A stretch of 64,000 nucleotides of DNA from Hyphomicrobium sp. CS1BSMeth3 (GTDB lineage: Bacteria > Pseudomonadota > Alphaproteobacteria > Rhizobiales > Hyphomicrobiaceae), in contig NZ_FPEI01000004.1 of NCBI RefSeq assembly GCF_900117415.1, positions 248,001 to 312,000 on the forward strand, in the 5' to 3' direction. The translations under genes and the position numbers were made by a program. The notes beneath the pieces were generated by a model. The model was given only the letters and a program-made list of their open reading frames with translations. It made no database searches and was not told the origin of the DNA. Position 1 is the first letter of the stretch; every line of letters begins with the position of its first letter. Below, piece after piece: positions 33,417 to 57,080 of the stretch.

Positions 33417-33807
33417 GAGGCCCCCTTTTCGCGTTTACCGGCAGCGTATCATGATTGAATGGGGCGGAAATCCGGCCCCGGCGGCGAGCTTCCCACGTCA
33501 GGCGACTGTGGCTCCATATTGCAACTCTTTAACCGATTGGTGCATTGCAGCAAGCGGCAGACATTGCCATAAAGGGCGGCCGTCCGCCGTGGCAGGAAGT
33601 TTGCAGGCCCGGCGGCGCTAGTGTGATGATCGAGAAATTCGCCATACCAGGCGGCACGGTACCGAGCGAATTTCCCGATCTGAATCACACTAACAAGGTT
33701 ATGATTCTAGTGCCCCTTTTGCTTCCGAAGTTCGCTCGCGACGTCAGCATCAAGGTGGGCGAACTTCGGAAGCGGGGCACTAGTTAGGGTGCGGAGTAAG
33801 TTGAGAC
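33417..33807. other. 391-bp intergenic region between the ThiE-like gene and miaB
   Basis: The right half is occupied by the double-hairpin element at 33619-33783. The left part (33417-33618) holds no credible gene and presumably carries the promoter of the ThiE-like operon. A 79-81-residue ORF runs through the element on each strand, but it is produced by the repeat. Confidence 0.7.
33619..33783. repeat. Double-hairpin repeat element, copy A
   Basis: Hairpin 1 (33619-33692): outer arms TAGTGTGAT/ATCACACTA, inner arms GATCGAGAAATTCGC/GCGAATTTCCCGATC, unpaired TGA on the right side, loop of 23 nt. A 14-nt spacer follows. Hairpin 2 (33707-33783): outer arms CTAGTGCCCC/GGGGCACTAG, inner arms GCTTCCGAAGTTCGC/GCGAACTTCGGAAGC, unpaired TTT on the left, loop of 23 nt. 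It ends 24 bp before miaB. Confidence 0.9.
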
Positions 33808-35163
33808 ATGGCGCCGACGAAGAAGGTTTTCATCAAGACCTACGGCTGTCAGATGAACGTCTATGACAGCGAGCGCATGGCCGAGGCGCTGGCCGGCGGC
33901 GGCTACGCGCCGACCGACGCCCCCGACAACGCCGACCTCATCATCCTCAATACCTGCCATATTCGGGAAAAAGCTGCGGAGAAGGTTTATTCCGAGCTCG
34001 GCCGCCTGCGCTCGATCAAGGAGGAGCGCGCCCGCGCCGACCAGGAGACGGTCATCGCCGTCGCCGGCTGCGTCGCCCAGGCCGAGGGCGACGAGATCGT
34101 CCGCCGCGCCCCCGTCGTCGACCTCGTCGTCGGGCCCCAGAGCTATCACCAGCTCAACACGCTGATCGCCCGCAACCGCACGACCGCGCGCCCCGTCGTC
34201 GAGACCGAGTTTCCCGAGGACGACAAGTTCCGCCACCTCCCCGCCCGCGCCCCCGCACCAGCGCGGACACACACCGCGAGTGCCTTCCTCACGGTTCAGG
34301 AAGGCTGCGACAAATTCTGCACGTTCTGTGTCGTCCCCTACACGCGCGGCGCGGAGTATTCGCGCAGCGTCGCGGCCATCGAAGAGGAAGCGCGCCGCCT
34401 CGTTGCTGCCGGCGTGCGCGAGATCACGCTGCTCGGGCAGAACGTCAATGCTTATCACGGCGAGAACAGCAAGGGTGGGACGGCGTCTCTCGCCGACCTG
34501 CTGCGCCATCTGGCCGCGATCGAGGGCCTCGAGCGCCTGCGCTACACGACGAGCCATCCGCGCGATATGAGCGAGGACCTCATCGCCGCTCACCGCGATC
34601 TTGCGACGCTCATGCCCTACCTGCACCTGCCCTTCCAGGCCGGCGCGGACCGCGTGCTCGCGGCCATGAACCGCAAGCATACCGGCGCGGAATACCTCGA
34701 CATTGTCGCCCGCATCCGCGCCGCCCGCGCCGACATCGCCCTCTCGACGGACATCATCGTCGGCTTTCCCGGCGAGACGGACGAGGAGTTCGAGGCGACG
34801 CTCGACATCGTACGCAAGGTGCGCTTCGCCCAGGCCTATTCCTTCAAGTACAGCCCTCGCCCGGGCACACCCGCCGCCACCATGGAGCGCCAGGTGCCCG
34901 AGCCGGTGAAGATCGCGCGCCTCGCCCGCCTCCAGGCCCTGCTCGAGGAGCAGCAATCCTCGTTCAATGCCGGGTGCGTCGGCCGCGTCCTGCCCGTCCT
35001 GTTCGAGCGCCAGGGCCGCCGCGAAGGCCAGCTCATCGGCCGCTCGCCCTATCTGCAGTCCGTGCACGCCGATGCGGCACCCGGCCTCATGGGGCGCATC
35101 ATTCCGGTTGAAATCGCAAAGGCGGGTCCCAATAGTCTTTCTGGTGTGATCAGGGCGGCGTGA
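33808..35163 (+). CDS. miaB: tRNA (N6-isopentenyl adenosine(37)-C2)-methylthiotransferase MiaB
   Basis: A 451-residue radical-SAM enzyme that adds the 2-methylthio group to i6A37 of tRNA. N-terminal UPF0004 cysteines are Cys14 (TYGCQMN), Cys50 (NTCHIREKA) and Cys88 (AGCVAQ), binding the auxiliary Fe-S cluster. The radical-SAM triad is Cys167, Cys171 and Cys174 (CDKFCTFC). [11 protein letters not shown] and [11 protein letters not shown] are MiaB-specific. The C-terminal TRAM domain reaches about residue 440. It starts the conserved series miaB-phoH-ybeY-corC; phoH follows after 77 bp. Confidence 0.97.
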
Positions 35164-35240
35164 TATGCTGCTAGGGACTCAGGCGCCGATCGGGTTGCAT
35201 CGGCGCTAAGTCGACCGTCAACAGGCCAGGAGAGCCACAT

Positions 35241-36332
35241 TTGACAACTGCGCGCGGGTCGGCGGCCGCACGGCCGTCCAAACCCGAGAGGTCCCCGGAG
35301 AGCGCGAGAGAGGCTCATCGTGAGGGAACCCGGGCCAAGCACCGCATCGTCGTGCCTTTCGACGACAACCGGCTGCTGGCCCATCTGCTCGGCGAGTATG
35401 ATTCCCACCTCGCCCTCATCGAGAGCAGACTTGGCATCGAAGCCCATGCCCATGGCAACGTCGTCACGCTGACAGGACCGCAACCGGCCTGCGAGATCGG
35501 CCGCGAGGTTCTGAACGCCATTTATGATCGCGTGCGCAAGGGCGAGAGCGTCTCAGCCGGCGACATCGACGGCCTCATCCGCCATGCCCGCTCGGGCGCC
35601 CCGCGCAATGACGGTACGGCCCAGATTCGCACGCGCCGCCGTATAGTTACGGCCCGCACGCCGACCCAGAGCGACTATATCCGCGCCCTCGACCGCCACG
35701 ATCTTGTGTTCGGCGTCGGCCCTGCCGGCACCGGCAAGACCTACCTCGCGGTCGCGCAGGCCGCCTCGTACCTGGAGCGCGGCCTCGTCGAGCGGATCGT
35801 GCTCTCGCGCCCGGCCGTCGAGGCCGGCGAGCGACTCGGCTTCCTGCCGGGCGACATGCGGGAGAAGGTGGACCCCTACCTCCGCCCCCTCTATGATGCG
35901 CTCTATGACGTTCTGCCGCCCGAAAAGGTCGAGCGGGATCTCGAATCCGGGATCATCGAGATTGCGCCCCTCGCATTCATGCGAGGCCGCACGCTCGCGC
36001 ACTCGTTCGTCATCCTCGACGAGGCGCAGAACACCACGAGCATGCAAATGAAGATGTTCCTGACCCGCCACGGCGAGGGATCGCGCATGGTTGTGACCGG
36101 CGATCCCACCCAGATCGACCTGCCTCCTGGGCAGAAATCGGGTCTCGACGAGGCCGTGAGCCTCCTCGAGGGCGTCGAAGGCATCGAGGTGACGCACTTC
36201 ACCGCCGCCGATGTCGTGCGTAGCGAGCTCGTCGCGCGCATTGTCGCGGCCTACGACGGCGCGCCGACGATGTCGGGGCTCGGCTCCGGCGTCGCCTCGA
36301 CTCTCGCGCGGGGTCAGGCCCGCACGGAATAG
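35241..36332 (+). CDS. PhoH family P-loop ATPase
   Basis: A 363-residue PhoH-like protein (YbeZ/PhoH group). The TTG start is supported by an AGGAG sequence 8 bp upstream (CAGGAGAGCCACA). An N-terminal KH-like region (residues 35-100, NRLLAHLLGEYDSHLALIE) precedes Walker A GPAGTGKTYLA at 160-170. LSRPAVEAGERLGFLPGD and the Walker B stretch SFVILDEAQNTT (about 255) follow. It is thought to work with YbeY in RNA maturation, which matches the next gene 4 bp downstream. The C-terminal 20 residues are of low complexity. Confidence 0.94.
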   Translation: MTTARGSAAARPSKPERSPESAREAHREGTRAKHRIVVPFDDNRLLAHLLGEYDSHLALIESRLGIEAHAHGNVVTLTGPQPACEIGREVLNAIYDRVRKGESVSAGDIDGLIRHARSGAPRNDGTAQIRTRRRIVTARTPTQSDYIRALDRHDLVFGVGPAGTGKTYLAVAQAASYLERGLVERIVLSRPAVEAGERLGFLPGDMREKVDPYLRPLYDALYDVLPPEKVERDLESGIIEIAPLAFMRGRTLAHSFVILDEAQNTTSMQMKMFLTRHGEGSRMVVTGDPTQIDLPPGQKSGLDEAVSLLEGVEGIEVTHFTAADVVRSELVARIVAAYDGAPTMSGLGSGVASTLARGQARTE

Positions 36333-36336
36333 GACA

Positions 36337-36918
36337 ATGAATACGGTTTTGGATCAACCCGCAGTTCCCGGCGGCGATGCCGCCAGTGGCGAAGACCGAT
36401 CTTGTGACGAGGAGCCTCCGTCGCGATTGCGACTCGTACTCGAACGTGTGGACGACGACGGCGATTGGGATACCTTCGGGCCCGTCGACGACTTGATTTT
36501 GGCTGTCGGCCGTGTGCTGGCCGAAGCCCCCGAGCTTGCCGACGGCCTGCCGGCCTCGGCGGCCGTCGCGCTGAGCAGCAATGCCGCCGTGCGCCAATTG
36601 AACGCCGCCTACCGTGGCAAGGACGCCCCGACGAACGTCCTTTCTTTTCCGGCGCCGGAGCTCCCGCCCGGCATGACCGCCGAGGATGCGCGCGAGCTCG
36701 GCGATGTCGTGCTCGCGCTCGAAACACTCATCGACGAAGCCAAGGCCGCAGGCATCCCGCCTGCACACCACTTCCAGCACCTGCTCGTCCACGGCGTCCT
36801 GCATCTCATGGGCTACGACCACGAGACCGATACCGAAGCCGAGCACATGGAGGCCCTCGAGACCGCGCTCCTCGCGCGTCTCGGCATTCCAGACCCTTAT
36901 GCGGAGGCACGCCCATGA
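36337..36918 (+). CDS. ybeY: Endoribonuclease YbeY (rRNA maturation)
   Basis: A 193-residue YbeY. The zinc site is the HGVLHLMGYDH motif near residues 157-167 with three histidines; SNAAVRQLNAAYRGKDAPTNVLSFP is the conserved upstream segment. It acts in 16S rRNA 3'-end maturation and 70S quality control. The first 30 residues (acidic, before SRLRLVLERVDDD) extend beyond the usual start, but ATG at 36337 is the first codon after phoH and no better-placed internal ATG exists. It is 4 bp after phoH and 88 bp before the CorC gene. Confidence 0.94.
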   Translation: MNTVLDQPAVPGGDAASGEDRSCDEEPPSRLRLVLERVDDDGDWDTFGPVDDLILAVGRVLAEAPELADGLPASAAVALSSNAAVRQLNAAYRGKDAPTNVLSFPAPELPPGMTAEDARELGDVVLALETLIDEAKAAGIPPAHHFQHLLVHGVLHLMGYDHETDTEAEHMEALETALLARLGIPDPYAEARP

Positions 36919-37006
36919 CGCGCAAGCGGCCCCGACCCAAACCCATTGCGTTCACATCTACGACTTTATGAGCCCCAGACTCTTGAACCATGACAACTCT
37001 TGAACC

Positions 37007-38035
37007 ATGACACTCGCTGACGATACCGGTCCCCGCCCTGAAGGCACTAATGGTGCCGAGACTACGAGGAATGCCGAAGGCTGGCTTTCCGCGCTGCGCA
37101 ACCGTCTCGGCCTCGGCACGCAGCCGACGCTGCGCGATACGCTCGACGAGACATTGCGTGCGGAGGATCAGACCGGCACAGGCTTCTCGGCAGCCGAGCG
37201 GGAGATGCTCCTGCGCCTCCTCGAGTTCGGCACCGCCAAGGTCGAGGACGTCATGGTGCCGCGCGCGGACATCACCGCGATCGACGAGAGCGCGACGCTG
37301 GCCGAGCTGCTGCATCTTTTCGACACCTCCGGCGTCTCGCGCATTCCGCTCTTTCACGAGACGCTCGATGATCCGCGCGGCGTCATCCACATCAAGGATC
37401 TGATGGCCTACCTCACGCGCGGCGGTCTGCCCGCGCCGCGGCCGACGACGCCGCCCGCCGAAGATGCAACGGACGCTGCCCTGCCGCCGATCGATCTTGC
37501 CAAGGTCGATCTTTCGGTGACGATCGCCTCCGCCCAGCTTCGCCGCCGCGTGCTCTATGTGCCGCCCTCCATGCCGGCCGTGAACCTGCTCGTGCGCATG
37601 CAGGCGACGCATGTCCACATGGCCCTCGTCGTCGACGAGTACGGCGGCACCGACGGCCTCGTCACCATCGAGGACCTCATCGAGCAGGTCGTCGGCGAGA
37701 TCGAGGACGAGCACGACGTCGCCGAGGCCGCGAACATCGTCGAGGACCCCAAGCAGGGCCTCATTGCCCAGGCGCGCACGCCCATCGAGGAGCTCGAAGC
37801 CCACCTCGGCGTGAAGCTCCTCAAGAATGGCGAGGAAGAGGATATCGATACGCTCGGCGGCCTCGTCTTCACGCTGGTTGGCCGCGTGCCGGCGCTCGGC
37901 GAGATCGTGCGCCATGAGAGCGGCATCGAGTTCGAGGTCATCGACGCCGACCCGCGGCGCGTGAAGAAAGTCCGCATCCTCCGCCCCGGCCCGAGCGACG
38001 ACACCAGCACCCAGACGCCACCCGCCACAGGCTGA
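37007..38035 (+). CDS. Hemolysin/CorC family protein with CBS pair and transporter-associated domain
   Basis: A 342-residue cytoplasmic protein of the CorC/HlyC type. GTAKVEDVMVPRADITAIDE (about residue 77) opens the CBS pair, with VSRIPLFHETLDDPRGVIHIKDLM; the second CBS starts at LYVPPSMPAVNLLVRMQATHVHMALVVDEYGGTDGLVTIEDLIE. The C-terminal CorC_HlyC domain covers about 245-325. An insert of about 25 residues rich in Pro and Thr sits between the CBS motifs. It is the fourth gene of the miaB-phoH-ybeY series. The apolipoprotein N-acyltransferase gene (lnt) that usually follows is not here. The start is the second copy of a 17-bp duplicated start region. Confidence 0.92.
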   Translation: MTLADDTGPRPEGTNGAETTRNAEGWLSALRNRLGLGTQPTLRDTLDETLRAEDQTGTGFSAAEREMLLRLLEFGTAKVEDVMVPRADITAIDESATLAELLHLFDTSGVSRIPLFHETLDDPRGVIHIKDLMAYLTRGGLPAPRPTTPPAEDATDAALPPIDLAKVDLSVTIASAQLRRRVLYVPPSMPAVNLLVRMQATHVHMALVVDEYGGTDGLVTIEDLIEQVVGEIEDEHDVAEAANIVEDPKQGLIAQARTPIEELEAHLGVKLLKNGEEEDIDTLGGLVFTLVGRVPALGEIVRHESGIEFEVIDADPRRVKKVRILRPGPSDDTSTQTPPATG

Positions 38036-38141
38036 GCAGGCAACGCGGCCTCGTAGCCCCATCGGGCCGTGAGGCCGCCCGAACGCACACGCGAAACACG
38101 CGATTGCCAACGCACGCGAGTGGGGCCATATCTCGTGTGCC

Positions 38142-38819
38142 ATGACCATCATTCACCCGGTGCCGCCGACCATCTACACGGAGCCCGAGTTCCGCGTACG
38201 GGCCACCTCGCGGCTGTTTCACAGCCCGAGCGAGAGCGTGTTCGATCCGCGCACGGGCCGCGCATGGTCGCGCAGCGACTGGGATCTCAATCCCGAGATG
38301 CTCGCCGATTTCGAGGTCATGGCGCCGCCGCGGCCGGCCGCCGTGCTCGTGCCCGTCATCGCGCGCCCCGAGCTGACCGTCCTGCTGACCGAGCGCACCG
38401 CGCATCTTTCGACTCATGCCGGCCAGGTTGCCTTTCCGGGCGGCAAGGTCGAGGCTTCGGACATCGACGCCGTCCACACGGCGCTGCGTGAAGCCGAGGA
38501 AGAGATCGGCCTCTCGCGCACGCTCGTCGAGCCACTCGGCTTTCTCGATGGCTACCGCACCGGCACCGGCTTTCTCGTGACGCCGGTCGTCGCGCTCGTG
38601 AAGCCTGATTTCGTCCTCGCGCTCGATCCCGGCGAGGTGGCGAGCACCTTCGAGGTGCCGCTCGCCTTCCTCATGGATCCGGCCAATCACAAGCATCATT
38701 CGCGCCCCTGGCGCGGCCGCGAGCGTCACTACTACGCCATGCCCTTCGGCGATCATTACATCTGGGGGGCGACGGCGGGCATGCTCAAGAACCTTCACGA
38801 AAGGCTCTACGGGGGATGA
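38142..38819 (+). CDS. NUDIX CoA pyrophosphatase-like protein
   Basis: A 225-residue NUDIX hydrolase. The Nudix box is GGKVEASDIDAVHTALREAEEEIGL. It begins the CoA-type upstream motif LLTERTAHLSTHAGQVAFPGG, which marks the CoA-diphosphatase (NudL-like) group. GATAGMLKNLHERL closes the domain. It should hydrolyse coenzyme A or related nucleotide diphosphates to keep the pool clean. Its stop overlaps the next start as ATGA, linking it to the small membrane protein and then cca. Confidence 0.92.
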   Translation: MTIIHPVPPTIYTEPEFRVRATSRLFHSPSESVFDPRTGRAWSRSDWDLNPEMLADFEVMAPPRPAAVLVPVIARPELTVLLTERTAHLSTHAGQVAFPGGKVEASDIDAVHTALREAEEEIGLSRTLVEPLGFLDGYRTGTGFLVTPVVALVKPDFVLALDPGEVASTFEVPLAFLMDPANHKHHSRPWRGRERHYYAMPFGDHYIWGATAGMLKNLHERLYGG

Positions 38820-39082
38820 TCCGCGTCGTCGTCGAGAACATCGTCCTATTTCTTCTGCCGACGGCAATCTACGTCATCTATGTGCTGCTGACGCGCAAAC
38901 AGCACGAGAAGGCCGGCGTCCTGGACGACGCGCCGTTCTTCTGGCTCATGCTCGCCGGCACAGGGCTCGTTTTTCTCGTGCTCGTCGCGTTTGGCACGAC
39001 GTCGGGCGGCAAGCCGGGGCAAGTCTATGTCCCGCCGCACCTCGGCACGGGCGGCAAGATCGAGCCTGGTGAATTGAAATAA
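38816..39082 (+). CDS. Small membrane protein (DUF6111 family)
   Basis: An 88-residue protein. It starts within the NUDIX stop (ATGA). Two hydrophobic helices occur at about 6-25 and 43-62, with a C-terminal tail GKPGQVYVPPHLGTGGKIEPGELK. The pattern is that of the alphaproteobacterial DUF6111 proteins found between a NUDIX gene and cca. Function unknown. Confidence 0.85.
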   Translation: MIRVVVENIVLFLLPTAIYVIYVLLTRKQHEKAGVLDDAPFFWLMLAGTGLVFLVLVAFGTTSGGKPGQVYVPPHLGTGGKIEPGELK

Positions 39083-39096
39083 GCTGGTCAGGTGAC

Positions 39097-40612: not shown

Positions 40613-40646
40613 AGCCCCGGCTTGCCACGCCGGGGCTTTTCTTTTT
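40613..40646 (+). terminator. Rho-independent terminator downstream of cca
   Basis: A 9-bp stem AGCCCCGGC/GCCGGGGCT around TTGCCAC, followed by TTTCTTTTT. It lies 256 bp after the cca stop and just before the convergent HAD gene's stop; the T-run serves + strand transcripts. Confidence 0.9.
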
Positions 40647-40649
40647 GTC

Positions 40650-42799: not shown

Positions 42800-45700
42800 A
42801 TGACCCAAGCGATTCCCTCCGCCCCCGGCGCGCCTTCGTTCGTGCACCTCAAGGTGCATTCGGCCTACTCGCTGCTCGAAGGCGCGCTGCCGATCAGCGC
42901 GCTCGCCAAGCGCGCGGCCAAGCTCGGCTTTCCGGCCCTCGCGCTCACTGACACGAACAACCTCTTCGGCGCCCTCGAATTCTCCGACAAGCTCGCCGGC
43001 TCCGGCATCCAGCCGATCGTGGGCATCAGCCTCGCCGTCGATTTCGAGGAAGCGAACAAATCCGGCCCCGGCATCGCGGGTCTGCCCGCCCTGCCGCCCC
43101 CGCATCGCGATGGCCTGCTGGCACTGCTCGCCATGAGCGAGACCGGCTACGGCAATCTCATGAAGATCGCGAGCCGCGCCTACATGGGCACGAGCGATGG
43201 CGAGACGCCGCACGCCAAGATCAGCCACATTGCCGCCCACGCCGAAGGCCTGATCGCACTCACCGGCGGCCCCGACGGCCCGATCGACAAGACCATCGCC
43301 GACAACCACGGCGCGACCGCAACCGCGCGCGTGAAGACGCTCAAAGACATCTTCGGCGACCGCCTCTATGTCGAGCTTCAACGCCACGGCCTTCCCCAGG
43401 AAAAAGCCGTCGAGCCGCAGCTCATCGACCTCGCCTACGCCGAGGATCTGCCGCTCGTCGCGACCAACGAGTGCTACTTCGCCGAGCCCGAGGACTACGA
43501 GGCCCACGACGCACTCCTCTGCATTGCCGAAGGCCGCTACCTCAATGAGGACGACCGCCGCCGCCTCACGCCCGAGCACCACTTCAAGAGCGCCGAGGCC
43601 ATGGCCAAGGTGTTCGCCGATCTGCCCGAGGCCCTTGCCAGCACCGTCGAGATCGCGCGCCGCTGTGCCTATCGCCCGCGCGGGCGCAAACCCATCCTGC
43701 CGAACTTCGTGCAGACCAAAGCCGACGCGACCGCCGAGGAGCGCGCCGAAGCCGAGGCCGCCGAGTTCGCACGTCAGGCGCAGGAAGGCCTCGTCAAGCG
43801 GCTCGCCGTCAATCCGCTCGCGCCCGGCTTCACCCAGGAGGACTACGAGAAGCGCCTCGCCTACGAGATCGACATCATCAAGGGCATGAAGTTCCCGGGC
43901 TACTTCCTGATCGTTGCGGACTTCATCAAATGGTCCAAGGCGAACGGCATTCCCGTCGGACCGGGCCGCGGCTCGGGCGCCGGCTCGCTCGTCGCCTGGG
44001 CGCTCACCATCACCGATCTCGATCCGCTCCGCTTCGGCCTGCTCTTCGAGCGCTTTCTCAATCCCGAGCGCGTCTCGATGCCGGACTTCGACGTCGACTT
44101 CTGCCAGGACCGGCGCGACGAGGTCATCCGCTACGTGCAGCAGAAATACGGCCACGATCGCGTCGCGCAGATCATCACGCACGGAAAGCTGCAGGCGCGC
44201 GCCGTGCTGCGCGACGTCGGCCGCGTGCTGCAGATGCCGTACGGCCAGGTCGACCGCCTCTGCAAGCTCGTGCCGAACAATCCGGCCAATCCGGTTTCGC
44301 TCCCCGATGCCATTGCCGGCGAGCCCAAGCTGCAGGAGGAGCGCGACAGCGAGCCCGTCGTCGCGCGCCTGCTCGAAATCGCGCAGAAGCTCGAAGGCCT
44401 CTACCGCCACGCTTCGACGCACGCCGCCGGCATGGTGATCGGCGACCGCCCGCTCGACCAGCTCGTGCCCGTCTATCGCGATCCGCGCTCGAACATGCCG
44501 GTCACGCAGTTCAACTGGAAGTTCGTCGAGGCGGCCGGCCTCGTGAAGTTCGACTTCCTCGGCCTGAAGACGCTCACCGTCATCCAGAAGGCACTGGAGC
44601 TCATCGAGCGCGGGCACGGCGTCAAGCTCGACCTCGCCACGCTCGCCGTCGACGACAAGAAGAGCTACGAGCTTCTCGCCAGGGCCGATACGGCCGGCGT
44701 GTTCCAGCTCGAAAGTACGGGCATGCGCGAGAGCTTGAAGCGCCTCAAGCCCGACCGTCTCGAGGACATCATCGCCATGGTGGCGCTCTATCGCCCCGGC
44801 CCCATGGACAACATCCCGACGTACATCAACCGCAAGCACGGCGACGAGCCCGTCGACTACCTGCATCCGATGCTCGAAGGCATCCTGAAAGAGACCTACG
44901 GCGTCATCATCTACCAGGAGCAGGTCATCCAGATCGCGCAGGTCATGGGCGGCTACTCGCTCGGTCAGGCCGACTTGCTCCGCCGCGCCATGGGCAAGAA
45001 GGACAAGGCCGAGATGGCGCGCCAGCAGGCGCGGTTCGTCGAGGGCGCGAAGTCCAAAGGCGTGAAAGAAAAGGACGCCGCCTACATCTTCGAGCTGGTC
45101 GACAAGTTCGCAGGCTACGGCTTCAACAAGAGCCACGCCGCCGCCTATGCGCTCGTCAGCTACCACACGGCCTATCTCAAGGCGAACTTCCGCGAGGAGT
45201 TCCTCGCCGCGTCCATGACGCTCGACATGGCCAACACCGACAAGCTCGCCATGTTCGTCGGCGAGGCGCGCAAGGCCGGCATTGCCGTGTTGCCTCCGTG
45301 CGTGAACGGCTCCGATGTCGAGTTCACGGTCGAGTTCGAGAAGAGGCCGGGCATCCCCTCCCCCCTTGTGGGGGAGGGCAAGGGAGGGGGGGATCGCAGA
45401 GCATCTGCGATTGAAGCTCCCTCTATCGGCGGGATTCCCCCCACCCCTAACCCCTCCCCACAAGGGGGAGGGGAATTGCCCTCCAATGCCGACGGCCCGC
45501 GCGGCGCGATCCGCTATGCCCTCGCCGGTCTCAAGAACCTCGGCCGCGGTGCCGTCGAAACGATCGTGGAGAGCCGGAGGGCAAAGGGTCCCTTCGCATC
45601 GCTTGCGGACTTTGCCGCCCGCCTCAACTCCAAGGCTGTCAACAAGCGCGGGCTCGAGACCCTCGCCGCCGGCGGCGCGTTCGACACGTTCGATCGCAAC

Positions 45701-46519: not shown

Positions 46520-46540
46520 GTCAGGGGAGCCCCCACTTCC

Positions 46541-46656
46541 CCTTCTCCCCGTGCTTACGGGGAGAAGGTCGGGATGAGGGCGGCCCACTTGCTGACGTCG
46601 GCGTCTGCCGCCGCCCCTCACCCTAACCCTCTCCCCGTGAAGGACGGGGAGAGGGG
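46541..46656. repeat. Inverted double-hairpin repeat, family 2 (REPIN-like)
   Basis: Left hairpin 46541-46568 (arms CCTTCTCCCCGT/ACGGGGAGAAGG). Right hairpin 46627-46656 (arms CCCTCTCCCCGT/ACGGGGAGAGGG). Between them TCGGGATGAGGG and CCCTCACCCTAA are inward-facing complements. It separates the convergent dnaE and tctC genes and may act as a bidirectional terminator. Confidence 0.8.
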
Positions 46657-46665
46657 ATCCTCGCA

Positions 46666-49246: not shown

Positions 49247-49262
49247 CGGCGCCATTCCCCCC

Positions 49263-49429
49263 TAGTGTGGTGGTTCCGAAGTCCGCCACCCCTTCGCGGC
49301 AGGTGTCGGAGGCGGACTTCGGAACCTGAACCACACCAGATCCATAGACTTGCTAGTGTCCTTTCGATCGCGAAGTTCGTTCGAGAGCCCGCCGCAGACG
49401 GCGACGAACTTCACGATCGGGGACACTAG
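49263..49429. repeat. Double-hairpin repeat element, copy B (between tctB and tctA)
   Basis: Hairpin 1 (49263-49338): outer arms TAGTGTGGT and ACCACACCA, inner arms GTTCCGAAGTCCGCC/GGCGGACTTCGGAAC (perfect, 15 bp), unpaired CTGA on the right, 23-nt loop. Spacer 14 nt. Hairpin 2 (49353-49429): outer CTAGTGTCC/GGGACACTAG, inner CGATCGCGAAGTTCG/CGAACTTCACGATCG, unpaired TTT on the left. Same geometry as copy A with different inner sequences. Confidence 0.9.
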
Positions 49430-49932: not shown

Positions 49933-50163
49933 GATCGCGTCCTCCCTTGACGCAATTTCTTTTTATGGGTCGAGGCTAGCACAGGATCGGGGGTGCGCAA
50001 TGCCTTAAGTTCGCGGGCGTTCGCGCTCCGCGCGGCCGGACGTGGTTGACAACCTCCCGTCCGGGCCGCTCTTTTCCGGCTGTCCGGACGCGCCCATGGC
50101 GTTGCCGCAATGGTCGGTCATGACCCTCCCACCACTAACGCCGCCCGAGCCAATAGAGATGCC

Positions 50164-50937
50164 ATGTCCCTTGCCGAACGCCTCGCCGGATTGAAGCGCG
50201 ACCCCGCCCTCGAGAGCCTCAAGCGCTCTCTCGACGTCTACTACGGCGACACCGCGCGCGAGGCGGCCATGGACGCGCTCTATGCGCGGTTCGTGCAGCC
50301 CGGCGACCTCGCCTTCGACATCGGCTCGCACGTCGGCGACCGCATTGGTGCCTTCCGCCGCCTCGGCGCGCGCGTCGTCGCCCTCGAGCCGCAGCCGCTC
50401 TGTGCCCACGCCATTCGTGCGATCTACGCTGGCGACACCAACGTTACACTCGTCGAGAGCGCATGTGGCCCGGCCGCAGGAAAGATCAGCCTGCATGTGA
50501 ACACGGCCAACCCGACGGTCACGACCGCCTCGCGCGATTTCGTCAAAGCCGCGGACGGCGCCGGTGGCTGGGAAGGCCAGGTCTGGGATCGCGAGATCGA
50601 AGTGCCCGTCACGACACTCGATGCGCTGATCGCGGCGCATGGCGCGCCGAACTTCGTGAAGATCGACGTCGAAGGCTTCGAGGCCGATGTGCTCGCGGGC
50701 TTGAGCCAGGCGCTCCCCGCGCTCTCCTTCGAGTTCACGACCATCCAGCGCGATGTGGCCTATGCCTGTCTCGCCCGCATTGCCGCGCTCGGCGACTACG
50801 GCTTCGACCTTGCGCTCGGCGAGAGCCAGACACTCGATCTCGGCCGCTGGGTCACGGCCGATGACATGCGCGCACACATCGCCGCGCTGCCGCACGCGGC
50901 AAACTCCGGCGATGTGTACGCTGTGCGGCGGAACTAA
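50164..50937 (+). CDS. FkbM family methyltransferase
   Basis: A 257-residue SAM-dependent methyltransferase. GDLAFDIGSHVGDRIGAFRRLGARVVALEPQPLC (about residues 50-85) contains motif I and the acidic end of strand 2. VTTLDALIAAHGAPNFVKIDVEGFEADVLAGL is the FkbM-specific KIDVEG motif. The start ATG of MSLAERLAGLKRD was chosen; the upstream extension is Pro-rich and not conserved-looking. It may methylate a glycan or natural product. Its TAA stop is the first codon of the hairpin element at 50935. Confidence 0.9.
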   Translation: MSLAERLAGLKRDPALESLKRSLDVYYGDTAREAAMDALYARFVQPGDLAFDIGSHVGDRIGAFRRLGARVVALEPQPLCAHAIRAIYAGDTNVTLVESACGPAAGKISLHVNTANPTVTTASRDFVKAADGAGGWEGQVWDREIEVPVTTLDALIAAHGAPNFVKIDVEGFEADVLAGLSQALPALSFEFTTIQRDVAYACLARIAALGDYGFDLALGESQTLDLGRWVTADDMRAHIAALPHAANSGDVYAVRRN

Positions 50938-51010
50938 AGCGTCGGACCTTAAATGCGACCCACGCCTGTGCCGAACTCAAAATCGCATTTAAGGTCCCAA
51001 AGACGCTTTA
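50935..51010. repeat. Single bulged hairpin element, copy D, between convergent genes
   Basis: Outer arms TAAAGCGTC (50935-50943) and GACGCTTTA (51002-51010). Inner arms GGACCTTAAATGCGA (50944-50958) and TCGCATTTAAGGTCC (50983-50997), perfect 15 bp. Unpaired CAAA on the right side, loop of 24 nt. Both outer ends supply TAA stop codons to the convergent genes. Confidence 0.9.
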
Positions 51011-51388
51011 GAACGAGAGCGTCGCCGCGCCGGCCTTGAGCTCGGCGTGCATGACGCTCGCACCCGTGATGACCACGCCCTCGATGAAATCGGCCTGCTC
51101 GTAGCCGCGCGACTTCACGCAAGGCGTACAAGCCCAGATCACGCCGCCGCGCGCCTGGAAGTCCTTGATCAGCGCAGCAAGCGAGTCGAGGGGCGCCACC
51201 TGTGTCATGGTCTGTCCGCCCTTGCGGACGAGGTCGATGCCCGTGCTGCTCAGAAAGATATAGACTTTCAGGCCGGCGGTAATGCCTCCGTTGGCTATGG
51301 TGAACGCCACCGACGAAAGTTCGCTTTCGATGCCTTTGGTTACCAGGATTACCAGCTTGTCCGTTACATTCGCCACGTTTGCCTCCAT
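51008..51388 (-). CDS. DsrE/DsrF-like family protein
   Basis: A 126-residue protein of the DsrE superfamily. It begins VTDKLVILVTKGIESELSSVAFTIANGGITAGLKVYIFLSSTGIDLVRKGG, the usual first half, and carries CTPCVKSRGYEQADFI with two cysteines at about 87 and 90, which in family members accept persulfide. It may relay sulfur in tRNA thiolation or sulfur oxidation, in line with the persulfide-linked YeeE pair elsewhere in the window, although they are not linked. Its stop codon is the outer TAA of copy D. Confidence 0.86.
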   Translation of the reverse strand: MEANVANVTDKLVILVTKGIESELSSVAFTIANGGITAGLKVYIFLSSTGIDLVRKGGQTMTQVAPLDSLAALIKDFQARGGVIWACTPCVKSRGYEQADFIEGVVITGASVMHAELKAGAATLSF

Positions 51389-51467
51389 GCTCTATGATCA
51401 GTGAAAACGTCGCTTGACCTAATGCTGAAGCGTTCTTCCGTCATTGGCCGCAATGCCGAGATCCTTG

Positions 51468-52463
51468 ATGCAGAATCCAGCCATCGAGAGCTCCGACGTC
51501 GGCGATCTGCTTTCGGAGGCGCTGCGCAGGATCCGCATTACCGGTTCTCTCCAGTACTGCTACATGCCGAGCGGCAACTGGATTACGGACGCGACGCCCT
51601 CCTCCTACAAGCCAGCCGATGCCATCGGCTTTCACATCGTGGCAGGCGGCACCTGCTGGCTGGAGATCGAAGGCCGAAGGACCACCCTCGAGAAAGGCGA
51701 CATCGCGGCCTTCCCGTTCGGCACGCCGCATTGGATCGGTGTCGGCGTCGACGGCCGTCTCATCGATCCCGGTGTTGATCTGCCGCCCGCGCCGTGGCGT
51801 GAGATCCCCACTCTTCGCTATGGCGACTTCGAGAGCCGGATGCGCATCCTCTGCGGCTACATCCAGTGCGAAGCCATGAACTTCGCGCCTTTCCGGGATC
51901 TGCTGCCGAAGTTCATCCACGTGCGGACACTGAACGGCGAGCGGTCGGACTGGCTCGCCTCGACCATCGAGCAGATCGTCGTCGAGGTCGACAAGCCACA
52001 GCGTGGCGGATCATCGGTGCTCGAACGCCTGACCGAAGTGACTTTCATCGAGGTTCTGCGCCGCGAGTTCCTGCTCAACGAGCCGACCTCGACAGGTTGG
52101 CTCGCCGCAATCCGCGATCCGGCGCTCGGGCGATGCCTCGCGTGCCTCCACGCCGATCCGAAGCGCGAATGGACGATCGAGGCTCTCGCGAAGGCGTCGG
52201 GGCTTTCGCGAAGCGCCCTAGCCGGGCGCTTCACCGCGACCCTGCAGATCTCTCCCATCCGCTATCTACGCGACTGGCGCCTCTATCTCGCCAGCGTCGA
52301 ATTGAAGACGAGAGACAAAGCCATCAGCACCATTGCTCTGGATGCGGGCTACAGTACAGAATCCGCCTTCAACCGCGCCTTTGCGCGCTACTTCGGAACA
52401 CCGCCCGCCGAATGGCGCCGCACGGCGACGAAATCGACGCGGGGAGATTCCCCGCAGGAATAG
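51468..52463 (+). CDS. AraC family transcriptional regulator (cupin_6-type sensor)
   Basis: A 331-residue AraC/XylS-type regulator. The N-terminal half is a cupin-like AraC ligand domain, with GFHIVAGGTCWLEIEGRRTTLEKGDIAAFPFGTPHW. The C-terminal 100 residues contain the double helix-turn-helix: WTIEALAKASGLSRSALAGRFTATLQISPIRYLRDWRLYLA and AISTIALDAGYSTESAFNRAFARYFGTPPAEWRR. The start is the ATG of MQNPAIESSD. It is divergent from dsrE and precedes the convergent TonB receptor gene. The target is unknown. Confidence 0.92.
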   Translation: MQNPAIESSDVGDLLSEALRRIRITGSLQYCYMPSGNWITDATPSSYKPADAIGFHIVAGGTCWLEIEGRRTTLEKGDIAAFPFGTPHWIGVGVDGRLIDPGVDLPPAPWREIPTLRYGDFESRMRILCGYIQCEAMNFAPFRDLLPKFIHVRTLNGERSDWLASTIEQIVVEVDKPQRGGSSVLERLTEVTFIEVLRREFLLNEPTSTGWLAAIRDPALGRCLACLHADPKREWTIEALAKASGLSRSALAGRFTATLQISPIRYLRDWRLYLASVELKTRDKAISTIALDAGYSTESAFNRAFARYFGTPPAEWRRTATKSTRGDSPQE

Positions 52464-52471
52464 CGCGTCGG

Positions 52472-54646
52472 CTACCACTGCATGGTCGCCGAGAGCCGGA
52501 ACGAGCGCGGCTCCACGGGATGGAAATGCTTGTCCTCGACGCCGCCCGCCGGCTCGCCCGGCAATCGCGAGGCGTAGAAATAATCGATCTGGCTCGCTTT
52601 GGCGTCGAGCAGGTTGAAGCCGTCGAGGCGCACGATCAGGCCGCTCGCGAACTTGTAGCCGAGGCGTGCCGACACGGTCGTCGTGGCCTCCGAGCGCTCG
52701 CTGTTGTCCTCGATGAGCGGCCGCGGTCCGAAGTAGCGCACCTTCACGCCACCAAACCAGCCGCCGAGCACGTCGTTGAACGAGAGCCCCGCAGCCACGA
52801 CGCCTTCGACGGCGCCCGGAATGTGCCGGCCCGGCGCATCGGGATCATCCTCGCGGAAACGCGCCTGCGTGTAGGCGGCGCTGAAGTCCGCCGTCAGCCA
52901 GGGCGCGAGCTTCGCGTTGAAGGTCAGCTCGCTGCCGAGACGGCGGCTCGGCCGGCTCGCCTCGGTATTTCCGGCATCGCCGACGAACACGATCTCGGAA
53001 TCGAAATCGAGCACGAAGAATGAGAGCGTGCTGAGAAAGCCCTTCCAGGGTTGCGTGCGCAGGCCGACCTCAGCTCCCTTCGAGCGCACGAGGAACGGTG
53101 TGCGCGCGGCCGGGTCGCCGCTGACCGGATCGATGGTCGTCACGGTGCCGCGCGCGTCATTGCTGTGAAAGCCCGTGCCCGCATTCAGATAGAGCTCGGT
53201 CTTTGCCCAGGACCCGAGCACGAGACCCGCCTTCGGGCTCAGGATCGCATCGCTGTCGCGACCCGAGTTCGCCGCGATATTGCTCGCGACATCCGTCCAG
53301 TACACATCGCCGCGCAGCCCGACGGTCGTGCGCAGCCAGTCCGTCCAACGCAGCGTGTTCTCGCCGAAGACGCCCGCACTCGCCTCGCGCACGCGATCAT
53401 CGCGCACCGTCGAGAGCATCACACGCTCGCGCGTATTGAAGAGGCCGACCGCGATGTCGTCGTAGCGCGTCTGGATGCCGACCGTCGTCTCGCTCCTGAC
53501 GCCGAAGGCCGTACCAAAATATGTGCGGCTCGCGTTCGCACCGACAATCACGCGATCATCAGACTGCTTGAACTGGTCGCCGTTGACGGGATCATTCAGG
53601 AAGTACGTGAAATTATGAAAGAGCTTGAGATCGCTCTTGATGGCATAGGCATTGATCCGCGTCGCCGTCGTCGCCGTCGTCTCATGCCAGCGGCCCGAGA
53701 GACTGAAGCGCTGCGCCTCGCCATAGTCGGTCGGATCGAGATTGCCGAACCGTCCGATCAGCCCACCATCGACGGCGCGCAGCGGAATCTGGCTCGTCGC
53801 ATTCCACTTGCCCGAGTACGCCATTGCCGTCAGCGCAAAGCCATTGTCGTATGTGCCGCGCGCAAAGCGCATCACGCCATTGAGCTTGCGCAGCTCGTCG
53901 GGGTGCTCCCACGGGCCATTGAAGTGCTGAAGCTCGCCCGCGACGAGCACTATGCCATCGACACCGACCGGCGCCGACATGCCCGTCACCGCGCGGCGAT
54001 GGCCGAAGCTTCCGACCTCGACCTGCGCAAAATTCCGCTCCAGCTTGTCGACGATATCGAGGTGGACCGCGCCCGCCGAGGCGAAGTCACCTTCGGCCGC
54101 GAAGTACGGCCCCTTTCTGAAAGCAAGCCCGCGCATGATCTCCGGGATCATGAAGGCCGTATCTGCGTAGCCCTGCCCGTGGCCGTGCGTGCGCATGTTC
54201 ACCGGCATCCCGTCGATCGTGATCGCGATATCCGTGCCATGGTCGAGATTGAAGCCGCGCAGGAAGTACTGGTTGGCTTTGCCTTCGCCACTGTGCTGCG
54301 TGACGATGAGACCGGGCACCGCCTCGAGCACTTCGCCCGTGCGGTAGGCCGGCGTCGCAAGCAGCACCTCGGCCGGCACAGTGCCCTGGCTCGCAGACTG
54401 CGCGATCCCGACGTCATTGGCGCGCGGATCGATCGCCAGCACGGCGCCGAACTCGGATGGGTCAGCAGGCGCGACCGCAGGTGCCGATGTCACCGGAGCA
54501 GCCTTGCTCGCCGCCGCTTTAGGCTTGGACTTTACCTTCGCCGCCGGGCTCGTGACGGTGATGCCCGGAAGCTGAACCTGCTGCGCGGCGAGCGGTCCCA
54601 CTGACGCAATGCTCAGGGCAAGCGCGACGCCTGCTCTCTTCCCCAT
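52472..54646 (-). CDS. TonB-dependent outer-membrane receptor
   Basis: A 724-residue outer-membrane protein. Signal peptide MGKRAGVALALSIASVGPLAAQQ, followed by an Ala/Lys/Pro-rich stretch to about residue 70. The plug domain has LIVTQHSGEGKANQYFLRGFNLDHGTDIAITIDGMPVNMRTHGHGQGY near 130-175. The beta-barrel fills the rest and ends with an aromatic RLSATMQW. This kind usually takes up siderophores, vitamin B12 or other metal complexes; the class II NrdJ makes B12 a natural candidate but no B12 motif was seen. It is convergent with the AraC gene, 8 bp apart. Confidence 0.93.
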   Translation of the reverse strand: MGKRAGVALALSIASVGPLAAQQVQLPGITVTSPAAKVKSKPKAAASKAAPVTSAPAVAPADPSEFGAVLAIDPRANDVGIAQSASQGTVPAEVLLATPAYRTGEVLEAVPGLIVTQHSGEGKANQYFLRGFNLDHGTDIAITIDGMPVNMRTHGHGQGYADTAFMIPEIMRGLAFRKGPYFAAEGDFASAGAVHLDIVDKLERNFAQVEVGSFGHRRAVTGMSAPVGVDGIVLVAGELQHFNGPWEHPDELRKLNGVMRFARGTYDNGFALTAMAYSGKWNATSQIPLRAVDGGLIGRFGNLDPTDYGEAQRFSLSGRWHETTATTATRINAYAIKSDLKLFHNFTYFLNDPVNGDQFKQSDDRVIVGANASRTYFGTAFGVRSETTVGIQTRYDDIAVGLFNTRERVMLSTVRDDRVREASAGVFGENTLRWTDWLRTTVGLRGDVYWTDVASNIAANSGRDSDAILSPKAGLVLGSWAKTELYLNAGTGFHSNDARGTVTTIDPVSGDPAARTPFLVRSKGAEVGLRTQPWKGFLSTLSFFVLDFDSEIVFVGDAGNTEASRPSRRLGSELTFNAKLAPWLTADFSAAYTQARFREDDPDAPGRHIPGAVEGVVAAGLSFNDVLGGWFGGVKVRYFGPRPLIEDNSERSEATTTVSARLGYKFASGLIVRLDGFNLLDAKASQIDYFYASRLPGEPAGGVEDKHFHPVEPRSFRLSATMQW

Positions 54647-54817
54647 TTCCCCGGCCCAACCCTGACATCACCACCCCGCAATCCGAGGCTATTGAGGGCA
54701 CAAGGGCAATGTCCAGCCTGATTGCTGACGATGGCGATCGAGTTTTCGCCTCATGAGGCCATCGCGCAACGCGGCGTGTTTTCGATAGCGGTCTCGCCGG
54801 AGGACTTTTCGGACTGA

Positions 54818-55417
54818 CTACTGCGGGCAAGCCTTGAATTCGGGCCGCGCTTCACATGCCCCGCTCAACCGATCAAGCCATGAGTAGCGCGCGCCTGAAA
54901 CGGCATCCGGCTCGACGCGCCTGATGTAGGCATACGCGCAAACGGCCGTGATCTCCGTCTGCATGAGGGGCTGCATATCCGCGAGTTCCAATCGGAAGGC
55001 CTCGAGCTCCTGAAGGGCAGCATCCAATTGCATCCGACACCGGTCAATCCAATCGGCATGGATCAAATGAGCCGGCCGACGCCGCTCGTAGTTGATGGCT
55101 ATGGCCTTGTCGCAGGCGGCCGTCGCAGATCCCAATATCCTCAGGGCTCGCCTGCGCGGCGCGCCCATCGACGGGATAAGCGCCCGCGTATGTCCTGCGA
55201 TTTCATCCAAATGATCTAGGATCGCGGCACTCTCGATGAGCGTCTCGCCGTCATCGAGTACAAGCGCCGGCATCCTGCCGACAGGGGCAAATCGCCGGAA
55301 CTCAGCCGCCTGCGAGAATGGCGAAAGCGGCACATGCTCGAACGGCAGCGCCAGCACATGAAGCGCCACACCGACGCGGCGGACATACGGCGAGTCGTAG
55401 CGTCCAATCAGCTTCAT
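54818..55417 (-). CDS. Glutathione S-transferase-like protein
   Basis: A 199-residue protein with a GST N-terminal thioredoxin fold: MKLIGRYDSPYVRRVGVALHVLALPFEHVPL, where SPYVRRV holds the usual Ser. FRRFAPVGRMPALVLDDGETLIESAAILDHLDE contains the cis-Pro and glutathione gamma-Glu ES pair. The C-terminal helical domain follows. The ATG of MKLIGRYDS was chosen. It is read in the same direction as the TetR gene next to it, 36 bp away, and may be co-transcribed. Confidence 0.9.
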   Translation of the reverse strand: MKLIGRYDSPYVRRVGVALHVLALPFEHVPLSPFSQAAEFRRFAPVGRMPALVLDDGETLIESAAILDHLDEIAGHTRALIPSMGAPRRRALRILGSATAACDKAIAINYERRRPAHLIHADWIDRCRMQLDAALQELEAFRLELADMQPLMQTEITAVCAYAYIRRVEPDAVSGARYSWLDRLSGACEARPEFKACPQ

Positions 55418-55453
55418 AGCTCTCATCGCGGACGGTCGCAAAACCAGCCGCCC

Positions 55454-56026
55454 TCACTTCACGCCGTTGATCGCAAGCACCATCGTCTCCACGGCCGCGC
55501 TCGTCTTGAGGCCGCTCGCGCGCACCAGCGACCGCCATGTGTAGAAATCGAACGCGAGGTGCAGCATGGCCTTCTGCCGTTTGCCGAACCCGGCTGCGAG
55601 CACGCCCTCGCACGCCGCGATGGGCGCTCCAATGCGGAGCCCCGCAACCTCGCGGACGATCTCATTGACCTCGATGTCGCGCAGCACGCACCCGGCAAGA
55701 GCCTCATTGCGCGCGTACCAGCCGTACAGCGCCCCGATCCCCATGCGCAGCCGCTCGTCGCGATCTCCGATCGCGCGCCACGGCTCGGGATCGGGCAGCG
55801 GTTGGCGCTCAAGATGCAGACTCGAGCAGGCCATGAGCAGACTTCGCTCGTCCGGGAAGTGCGCATAGAGCGTATGGCGCTGCACGCCCGCGCGCTCGGC
55901 AACCATGCTGAAGCTCGAACGCGCCGGGCCGACGGTACCGTGAAGATCGATCGCGGCCTCGACGATGCGCAGGCGCGTTTCCGCCTGCTGATCGGCGCGC
56001 TTCGTCATATTATATGCGCGCGTCAT
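55454..56026 (-). CDS. TetR family transcriptional regulator
   Basis: A 190-residue TetR-type repressor (ATG at 56026; ATG at 56008 is an alternative but has no ribosome-binding site). The HTH reads LRIVEAAIDLHGTVGPARSSFSMVAERAGVQRHTLYAHFPDERSLLMA at about 16-65. The C-terminal ligand domain has no recognised subfamily. It is divergent from the di-iron ODP gene. A perfect 18-bp palindrome and a degenerate copy lie between the two starts, so it probably represses both. Confidence 0.92.
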   Translation of the reverse strand: MTRAYNMTKRADQQAETRLRIVEAAIDLHGTVGPARSSFSMVAERAGVQRHTLYAHFPDERSLLMACSSLHLERQPLPDPEPWRAIGDRDERLRMGIGALYGWYARNEALAGCVLRDIEVNEIVREVAGLRIGAPIAACEGVLAAGFGKRQKAMLHLAFDFYTWRSLVRASGLKTSAAVETMVLAINGVK

Positions 56027-56036
56027 GAAAATTCCA

Positions 56037-56120
56037 CTGCACACATACGTGCAATCATATTGACAACAGCTCCCGGTTCCGCTACACGCCCCGCCTAATT
56101 TAGATACACATATGTGTATC
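56037..56120. promoter_or_regulatory. TetR operator palindromes between TetR and ODP genes
   Basis: Perfect 18-bp palindrome at 56103-56120 (half-site GATACACAT and its complement). A related imperfect copy begins about 56039 (TGCACACATACGTGCAA). The two sites flank the divergent promoters, as expected for autoregulated TetR pairs. Confidence 0.7.
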
Positions 56121-56200
56121 ACGAAATTGCCTGCACGTCCACCATCACGTCCGCGGCACACCGCTGCGGCGAACATCCCTACTTTGCCTGGAGAAAAGCG

Positions 56201-56989
56201 ATGACCACGACAGTCAGCGAGATCGCAGACGGCATATTCCGGCTTTCGACCTTCGTGCCCGAGATCGGGCCGCCCGCCGGCTTCACGTTCAATCAGTTCC
56301 TGGTGCTCGGAGAAGAACCCCTCATGTTCCACACCGGCCTGCGCAAGATGTTCGCGCTGAACCGCGAGGCGCTGAGCCGCATCATCCCACCGGAGCGCCT
56401 GAGGTGGATAACGTTCGGTCATTTCGAGGCCGACGAGTGCGGCGCCATGAACGAGTGGCTCGCCATTGCGCCCAACGCTACTGCAGCCCACGGCCAGACC
56501 GGCTGCATGGTCTCGCTCAACGACTTCGCCGACCGTCCCTCGCGCGCGTTGAGCAACGGCGAAGTCATTGATCTCGGCCGCGGCAAGCGCGTGCGCTTTA
56601 TCGATACACCGCACACGCCGCACGGCTGGGACGCCGGCGTTCTGTACGAGGAAGGTACGCGCACGCTCATGTGCGGCGACCTCTTCACGCAGCTCGGCAA
56701 TGGCCCCGCACTTACGGACGGCGACATCGTCGGCCCGGCCATCGCGGGCGAGGACCTCTTCCAATATTCCTCCCTCAATCCTTGCATGGGCAGGACGCTG
56801 CGCGAGCTCGCCGCGCTCGCACCGCGCACACTCGCGCTCATGCACGGCCCATCGTTCATGGGCGATGGTGGTGCGGCGTTGCGCACACTGGCGGACGACT
56901 ATGACCGGCGCGCTAGTGTGATGATCGAGAAATTCGCCACATCCCGGGGCCACGGCACCGAGCGAATTTCTCGATCTGAATCGCACTAG
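56201..56989 (+). CDS. Oxygen-binding di-iron (flavodiiron-like) MBL-fold protein
   Basis: A 262-residue metallo-beta-lactamase-fold protein. The start at 56201 follows GGAGAAAAGCG. The metal motif is FGHFEADECG, that is H-x-E-x-D instead of H-x-H-x-D, which marks flavodiiron oxygen-reducing domains (ODP). Further ligands are TPHTPHGWD, LMCGDLF and LMHGPSF. No flavodoxin domain follows, so electrons must come from a partner. The last 25 or so residues (after DDYDRR) come from hairpin element copy C, whose right arm also gives the TAG stop. The divergent TetR gene probably controls it. Confidence 0.85.
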   Translation: MTTTVSEIADGIFRLSTFVPEIGPPAGFTFNQFLVLGEEPLMFHTGLRKMFALNREALSRIIPPERLRWITFGHFEADECGAMNEWLAIAPNATAAHGQTGCMVSLNDFADRPSRALSNGEVIDLGRGKRVRFIDTPHTPHGWDAGVLYEEGTRTLMCGDLFTQLGNGPALTDGDIVGPAIAGEDLFQYSSLNPCMGRTLRELAALAPRTLALMHGPSFMGDGGAALRTLADDYDRRASVMIEKFATSRGHGTERISRSESH

Positions 56990-57080
56990 CAAGATTTCGA
57001 TTCTAGTGTCCCCTCTGATTCCGACGTTCGCTCGCGACACCAGCATCGAGGTGGGGCGAACTTCGGAATCGGGACACTAG
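56913..57080. repeat. Double-hairpin repeat element, copy C
   Basis: Hairpin 1 (56913-56989): outer CTAGTGTGAT/ATCGCACTAG, inner GATCGAGAAATTCGC/GCGAATTTCTCGATC (perfect 15 bp), unpaired TGA on the right, 24-nt loop. About 13-14 nt later, hairpin 2 (57003-57080): outer CTAGTGTCCC/GGGACACTAG, inner GATTCCGACGTTCGC/GCGAACTTCGGAATC (one mismatch), unpaired CTCT on the left, 24-nt loop. The first hairpin lies inside the ODP gene's end. Confidence 0.9.

Follow-up and report, generated by a model that had tools for sequence, protein, structure and literature searches.

Twin bulged palindromes in Hyphomicrobium sp. CS1BSMeth3 as a probable non-autonomous mobile element inserting at CTAG-like targets

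What accounts for a group of bulged hairpins that recur in one stretch of the Hyphomicrobium sp. CS1BSMeth3 genome with the same geometry and different arm sequences? The stretch analyzed here, referred to as the window, is 64,000 nucleotides long and covers positions 248001–312000 of contig C5 in the 6.02 Mb host genome (G000; 6 contigs). It contains three double hairpins (A, B, and C) and one single hairpin (D). As a whole, the best explanation, which we consider probable, is that a non-autonomous mobile element of approximately 167 bp, built of two bulged palindromes, is present in three copies (A, B, and C) and that D is a single palindrome of this kind. The element is dispersed, is mostly absent at the orthologous loci tested, and inserts at CTAG-like targets, usually with TA at both ends. 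A single palindrome is also found alone at a CTAG-like target, and the arms within each palindrome covary, with Watson-Crick pairing kept. The original prediction for this locus described dispersed mobile hairpins that keep their geometry and remain self-complementary while their sequences vary; these observations bear it out, with the variation lying between families.

Anatomy, copies, and distribution

The full element consists of hairpin 1, a 13 nt linker, and hairpin 2, and is mostly 163–168 bp long. Each hairpin is a unit of approximately 76 bp with an outer arm of approximately 10 bp, an inner arm of 15 bp, and a loop of approximately 23 nt; the bulge lies on the 3′ arm of hairpin 1 and on the 5′ arm of hairpin 2, in both cases toward the linker. 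The four hairpin structures were located within a base or two of where they had been predicted, with A to C double and D single. Element A (33618–33783, plus strand) comprises hairpin 1 (33618–33693; inner arm of 15 bp with one mismatch, loop of 23 nt, and bulge TGA on the right arm), the 13 nt linker CAAGGTTATGATT (33694–33706), to which the linker of family 2 is similar, and hairpin 2 (33707–33783; outer arm of 10 bp, bulge of 4 nt on the left arm, inner arm of 15 bp, and loop of 23 nt). Element C (56913–57080, plus strand) likewise comprises hairpin 1 (56913–56989), the 13 nt linker CAAGATTTCGATT (56990–57002), and hairpin 2 (57003–57080). Element B (49262–49429) lies on the minus strand, so that its first hairpin as read on the plus strand (49262–49339) is hairpin 2 in the orientation of family 1, followed by the 13 nt linker (49340–49352) and the second hairpin (49353–49429). 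The solo hairpin D (50934–51011, minus strand) has CTAAAGC ends and a bulge on one arm, and corresponds to hairpin 2 of family 2, a distinct sequence family of equal geometry. A covariance model (R1), built on an alignment of 23 sequences (A2), scores the full spans of A and C at 166.6 and 157.6 bits, B at 144.1 bits on the minus strand, and D, a weak match, at 58.5 bits on the minus strand. B, which scores best in that orientation, is a diverged family-1 member. By eye, it looks like a chimera in which the inner arms of hairpins 1 and 2 have been swapped, as judged against the family-1 arrangement of outer arms and bulges. In the Rfam search of the window, a tRNA alone scored above the gathering score, and no Rfam family covers the elements.

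Hairpins of this kind occur beyond chance. Across 400 kb of the host, a strict scan (inner arm of at least 13 bp, one-sided bulge, and outer arm of at least 8 bp) yielded 10 hairpins, compared to none in either of two triplet-shuffles. A looser scan yielded 31 compared to 4 in one shuffle. A geometry-only scan identified 191 hairpin pairs 6–20 nt apart (166 unique sequences) in 3.18 Mb of DNA, much of which had been chosen as copy-bearing and some of which overlaps (loci L343–L400 were excluded and overlapping loci were retained). The predicted head-to-head arrangement is seen in 189 of the 191 pairs, which carry both bulges on the linker-facing arms. The two exceptions are a right–right pair and a left–left pair at locus L217, the latter being the end of a family-2 copy read jointly with the interrupted family-1 copy that surrounds it. 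By sequence, the 166 unique twin hairpins cluster as 143, 21, 1, and 1. The full form of family 2, first found in the congener G002, has the arm lengths, bulge sides, and linker length of family 1, and TATGA is common to the linkers of most copies in both families. The claim that structure is kept while sequence varies therefore holds between families but not for A versus C, which are ordinary copies of one family. The ends, predicted to read CTAG or TAA, usually take the form CTAG in family 1 and the form CTAA..TTA(G) in family 2. In the congener G003, the family-2 single hairpins L235 and L239, each a hairpin 2 with an outer 5′ arm of the hairpin-1 type, are apparent recombinants or deletions.

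The copies in the window are not the only ones. A search of the host with A recovered no fewer than 40 full copies of family 1, A counted, at 84–100% identity (40 scored out of 136 first-look candidates), and A shares 84–90% identity with the other 39 full copies listed. Eighteen spaced 20 kb samples of the host held four full family-1 and two full family-2 copies, and C5:100–500 kb held 11 and one, respectively; the difference between these counts indicates an uneven density along the host. DNA searches detected family 1 in 18 of 60 genomes, namely the host, all four congeners (G001–G004), and 13 of 31 others of the same bacterial family, and in none of 24 genomes from other families of the order. 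Its occurrence is patchy within genera (G011 has it and G034 does not). Among the 60 genomes, family 2 was detected only in the host and in three congeners, G002, G003, and G004. When R1 was searched against 240 genomes drawn from the class, with stricter filters that may miss weak matches, 15 genomes matched including the host; the 14 others come from 10 families, with E-values down to 3e-33. Feet (the terminal tetranucleotides), arms, and linker are similar across these other families in the R1 matches shown in alignment, and the model thus detects the plan elsewhere in the class. The R1 matches in G115 are forms of 117–121 bp with very short loops. Since the nearest host copies are at most approximately 96% identical (median ∼0.92 and maximum ∼0.96 among 42 copies), activity may have ceased. 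As a separate observation, all 11 full family-1 copies of C5:100–500 kb fall within C5:171–334 kb, where, as called, the first five are oriented one way and the next six the opposite way; B is among these six, and R1 prefers the opposite strand for it.

Empty sites and the insertion target

At 18 of 20 host loci (13 family-1 and 7 family-2 copies, compared with the four congeners), at least one congener matches the joined flanks without a gap; L224 is matched by one flank and L220 by part of one flank. B is missing from the orthologous place in G001–G004, where its flanks are present (less well conserved in G001). Rather than being conserved at orthologous loci, the copies are thus mostly faced by empty sites in the congeners. 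The L245 copy is common to the host and G002, and G004 has a family-1 copy approximately 50–80 bp from the host site L228. The net insertion is 161–166 bp at 12 of the 17 sites listed.

The empty junctions point to a preferred target. Of 19 sites (53 sequences), 8 sites (11 sequences) have a CTAG no more than 7 bases from the junction, compared to a mean of 0.29 sites and a maximum of 1 in control windows, and 18 sites have a TA within that distance, compared to a control mean of 6.57 and a maximum of 10. This count omits L220, which has no orthologue, and the element- or remnant-bearing relatives L348, L349, L374, L380, and L394, and it retains L224 though aligned by one flank. Further CTAG junctions were seen by eye at L250/L053, at L102/L268, and at host position 233782 of the examined stretch. 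Among family-2 sites, two relatives each have CTAG at L236, L240, and L224 (by one flank), and two of three relatives have CTAA at L232. At L217, a family-2 copy is nested in a family-1 copy at an internal CTAG and reads C-TA-[AAGC..GCTT]-TA-G, with TA on either side. Locus L013 exists in three states: the host carries a family-1 copy, G003 has a single family-2 hairpin, and G004 has the bare CTAG. The nested insertion, the three states of L013, and the CTAG junctions together provide a target and a testable insertion rule.

The feet of the element agree with this target in most copies. Among 168 unique sequences of 200 full family-1 copies, CTAG forms the left foot in 131 and the right foot in 149, and the feet are mostly paired. 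Other feet include CTAG/CGAG in 7 of the 168 copies and CCAG/CTGG in 2; at L004, GTAG in the relatives stands against CTAG and then CTCG in the host. TA flanking a target with one TA, as expected of a TA-duplicating miniature inverted-repeat transposable element (MITE), is the pattern observed, with exceptions at B, L003, L004, and the CTCG copies. Either the misfit feet came to match by conversion once the element was in place, or targeting is guided by the internal feet.

Arm pairing, the mobilizing enzyme, and rival explanations

Covariation between the arms is extensive. In A2, 95.3% of cells are paired and 38 of 50 pairs have changed on both sides, whereas none of 500 shuffles reaches any of five measures and slid structures pair at most 41.4%. 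The 1146 cells comprise 1075 Watson-Crick, 17 G·T, and 54 other combinations, and double Watson-Crick changes account for 142 cells. The pairing percentages of A2 are biased upward because 14 of its 23 rows take their coordinates from a geometric list that requires pairing (L032, L033, L042, and L084 were additionally obtained by the hairpin-1 pattern). The nine rows without pairing-based selection are 97.3% paired, with 21 of 50 pairs covarying and 5 G·T in 449 cells. An alignment of 31 host rows picked by sequence is also 97.3% paired, with 18 of 50 pairs covarying (8 of 50 without B, and 18 of 52 under its own fold) and 11 G·T in 1549 cells. These covariation figures are counts and not probabilities, since the copies are related. 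Covariation by Watson-Crick pairs with few G·T points to arm pairing that is kept at the DNA level, and such a signature is useful for separating DNA-level from RNA-level constraint on repeats. The symmetry reaches the center of many palindromes, as the symmetric motif GCNGC (TGCNGCA) is located at the loop center in 185 of 332 loops, compared to a mean of 52.9 in shuffled loops.

In the MITE-like explanation that we favor, a transposase acting in trans would recognize the palindromes and insert the element at the TA of CTAG with TA duplication, in the manner of IS630/Tc1-mariner enzymes, and this enzyme may have been lost from the host genome or may not be recognizable there. Arm complementarity would be kept as DNA, either because the enzyme binds folded or symmetric DNA or because template switching copies arm onto arm, and any effects on adjacent mRNAs would be a by-product. 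According to the title of a 1991 paper, IS630 reportedly prefers CTAG. TA duplication is described for ISY100 (PMC2170065). Ends were found for 9 of 30 IS630 loci in other genomes by a search that required TA but not the C and G, and five of these (L317, L324, L336, L338, and L340) end in CTAG, which fits an IS630-type enzyme without being proof of one. Across the 30 IS630 loci, no ends common with an autonomous insertion sequence were found; the best arm matches (20–21 of 25) are neighboring twin elements in L315 and L339. The IS630 genes of these two loci appear to be chance neighbors, because each element is complete by itself. As candidate movers, IS630 and IS5 were both set aside, since the IS630 domain DDE_3 (PF13358; 23 of 60 genomes) and the IS5 marker DUF4096 (PF13340; 20 of 36 genomes) do not follow the element in their distribution. 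The element is present without Y1, DDE_3, and DUF4096 in G004, G011, and G018. Genera with one copy-bearing and one copy-free genome, such as G011 and G034, offer a route to the mobilizing enzyme.

Several observations weigh against insertion at the TA of CTAG by an IS630-like enzyme. DDE_3 has no match in the host, G001, G002, G004, or G011, and for DUF4096 the host has one partial match, which passes the cut-off, while G001, G003, G004, and G011 have none. A lone-arm scan (14 of 905 arm matches, B and D included) surfaced no autonomous copy, the rest not having been inspected singly. At 11 of the 19 sites, no relative has an exact CTAG near the junction, and at L028 and L029 only one relative has it, in the case of L028 a few bases away. 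The net insertion is 167 bp at B and 135, 157, 177, and 179 bp at other sites, and approximately 167 bp at L004 by eye. The left foot is CTCG with CGAG as the internal foot in 12 of the 168 copies, and at L003 the right foot CTGG equals the CTGG of the relatives, with CCAG as its hairpin partner and CTAG as the left foot.

Such feet are among the features that would suit a link of the kind suggested in the original prediction, with REP elements and their associated tyrosine transposases (RAYTs) or with IS200/IS605. In this reading, a Y1 HUH transposase would act on the folded single strand, cutting at the CTAG foot and rejoining the strand beside a CTAG target with no duplication. The hairpins are bulged and their feet paired, the feet covary within the hairpin (CTCG/CGAG), the right foot of L003 is that of its relatives, and a TA duplication would look the same as a TA that forms part of one end of the element. 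However, Y1_Tnp (PF01797) has no match in the host (99.76% complete) or G001–G004, in a search that detected the E. coli positive control, and of the 10 genomes among 60 that have it, only two (G007 and G013) are among the 18 that bear the element. What is seen at the insertions is a CTAG-like target with TA on either side, as in TA-duplicating elements, instead of a RAYT-like signature, and we consider mobilization by a Y1 enzyme very unlikely. In G007, an IS200-like gene with one in-frame TAG (L146:1501–2173) adjoins a twin hairpin of a further sequence family; by eye, it appears to be a separate IS200-like insertion beside the copy and was not retained as a mover. The same misfit feet would also be expected if a structure-specific enzyme, neither Y1 nor IS630, were guided by pairing of an internal hairpin foot with the target tetranucleotide. 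Left feet go with their hairpin partner, the CTGG of the L003 relatives faces CCAG as the internal foot of hairpin 2, the CTAA at L232 would fit guiding, and none of the Y1, DDE_3, and DUF4096 markers follows the element. Yet the internal feet of family 2 predict CTAA, and the relatives at L236, L240, and L224 have CTAG, and such guiding seems unlikely. A broader reading, tentative and on balance doubtful, would place the element in a class of mobile DNA, present in many alphaproteobacteria, whose transposition signal lies in the shape or symmetry of a pair of bulged palindromes instead of a fixed end sequence and whose enzyme is not Y1, IS630, or IS5, possibly with pairing between foot and target; whole arm sequences would then be exchanged, with lengths, bulge side, and linker kept constant.

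Two further explanations concern the pairing itself. Terminators, attenuators, or protection of mRNA ends, as proposed for REP and ERIC, would suit copies that lie mainly between genes (an overlap of more than 60 bp with predicted coding DNA is seen for 13 of 147) and that more often have both neighbors co-directional with them (52) than opposed (25 of 122, with crude gene calls). If selection acted on an RNA helix, G·U should be more common than it is in the A2 cells, where double Watson-Crick changes far exceed G·T, and G·T is rare among the host copies too; moreover, the orthologous loci are usually empty, making an RNA role highly improbable. Alternatively, the complementarity may be mutational, with template switching in quasi-palindromes copying arm onto arm in otherwise decaying repeats. 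The varied forms in which feet are matched by their partners (CTCG/CGAG in 12 copies and CCAG/CTGG in 2) and the nearest-copy identities, which show that the host copies are not recent, agree with this process, but it leaves unexplained why bulge side, arm lengths, and linker are constant across sequence and taxonomic families. Template switching is improbable as a full account; it is compatible with the mobile-element explanation, and both can operate together.

The copies also meet neighboring genes in a recurrent way, as if they often supply the stop codon of an abutting gene. When a long open frame enters a family-1 copy, its stop is most often the TAG within the CTAG foot (168 copies, crude frames), with 60 stops at the left foot (31 at the next most frequent position) and 52 at the right (next, 15). 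A replication-strand bias is hinted at by single-orientation runs on host C5 and by 13 of 14 same-strand copies in G011, where a larger list is less one-sided. Local skew at 147 copies is negative at 82 and positive at 65 (sign test p 0.19, t test p 0.005), and GC skew in these genomes is too weak for testing such a bias. Two other repeats of the window are separate from the element: a dispersed repeat of approximately 120 bp (46536–46658), with at least dozens of 84–91% matches in G001, G002, and G003, and a C/G-rich imperfect inverted repeat (45353–45476) with 41 nt arms that are 78% complementary, which does not belong to the element family.

Comparison with known repeat systems

No published account of this family was found in the open-access literature, most subscription papers lying outside the search. 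The RIME repeats of rhizobia contain two large palindromes. RIME (Osteras 1995) is likened to the present element by mention only, as intergenic mosaic repeats in related bacteria (PMC2573895). REP elements and their BIME assemblies are similarly dispersed extragenic palindromes with an end tetranucleotide and paired inverted units, but REPs are described as 20–40 bp long, with a GTAG tag on one side only, and many of their hosts have a Y1 transposase (PMC3733652). Here, the units are approximately 76 bp, CTAG is itself paired and located at both ends, and the host has no Y1 match; no unpaired GTAG-type tag at one end was observed in the 168 family-1 copies. The end tetranucleotide, which had been taken as a link to RAYTs, is of a different kind from that in the REP literature (PMC3733652). 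RUP of Streptococcus pneumoniae, a proposed MITE mobilized by IS630-Spn1, is likewise a small non-autonomous repeat at TA (PMC2229807; PMC3049150). Its ends are reported to resemble those of a resident IS630, whereas no IS630 match exists in the present host, and the sections on RUP in these two sources give no twin-palindrome description.

The closest likeness is to CIR, the CcrM-associated intergenic repeats of Caulobacter (Chen and Shapiro 2003) and Brucella, compared here by description only. The original prediction did not recognize the family as described, but CIR is described with an equal two-arm layout (PMC2229807; PMC10969869). Both have two long stem-loop arms joined by a linker (two inverted-repeat arms and a linker are present here as the CIR description gives them), TA termini, an intergenic location, and an alphaproteobacterial host, and GANTC methylation motifs are described for CIR (PMC2229807; PMC10969869). 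In C. crescentus, CIR is reported to be strictly intergenic (PMC10969869). In the present element, GANTC occurs at 14.1 per kb in the 168 family-1 copies, compared to 1.04 in the flanks and 1.09 across 400 kb of the host (approximately 13-fold). It is most common at the bulge of hairpin 1 (148 occurrences among the 168 copies) and is frequent but not universal at the linker junction (57 of 143 twin hairpins in the family-1 cluster and 10 of 21 in the family-2 cluster). GANTC is thus located at the bulge, arm bases, and linker, whereas the CIR description places it in the terminal loop. The present element also differs in being mostly 163–168 bp long, with loops of approximately 23 nt and one-sided bulges that face the linker, although the 117–121 bp forms of G115 are close to the approximately 110 bp given for CIR. 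As of 2007, the mobilizer was described as not known for CIR-type repeats and for most bacterial repeats of such size, and the target duplication of CIR is given as “?” (PMC2229807), whereas target and TA ends are demonstrated here. We therefore call the Hyphomicrobium element a new variant placed beside CIR, not a proven member, that shares its plan of two arms and a linker.

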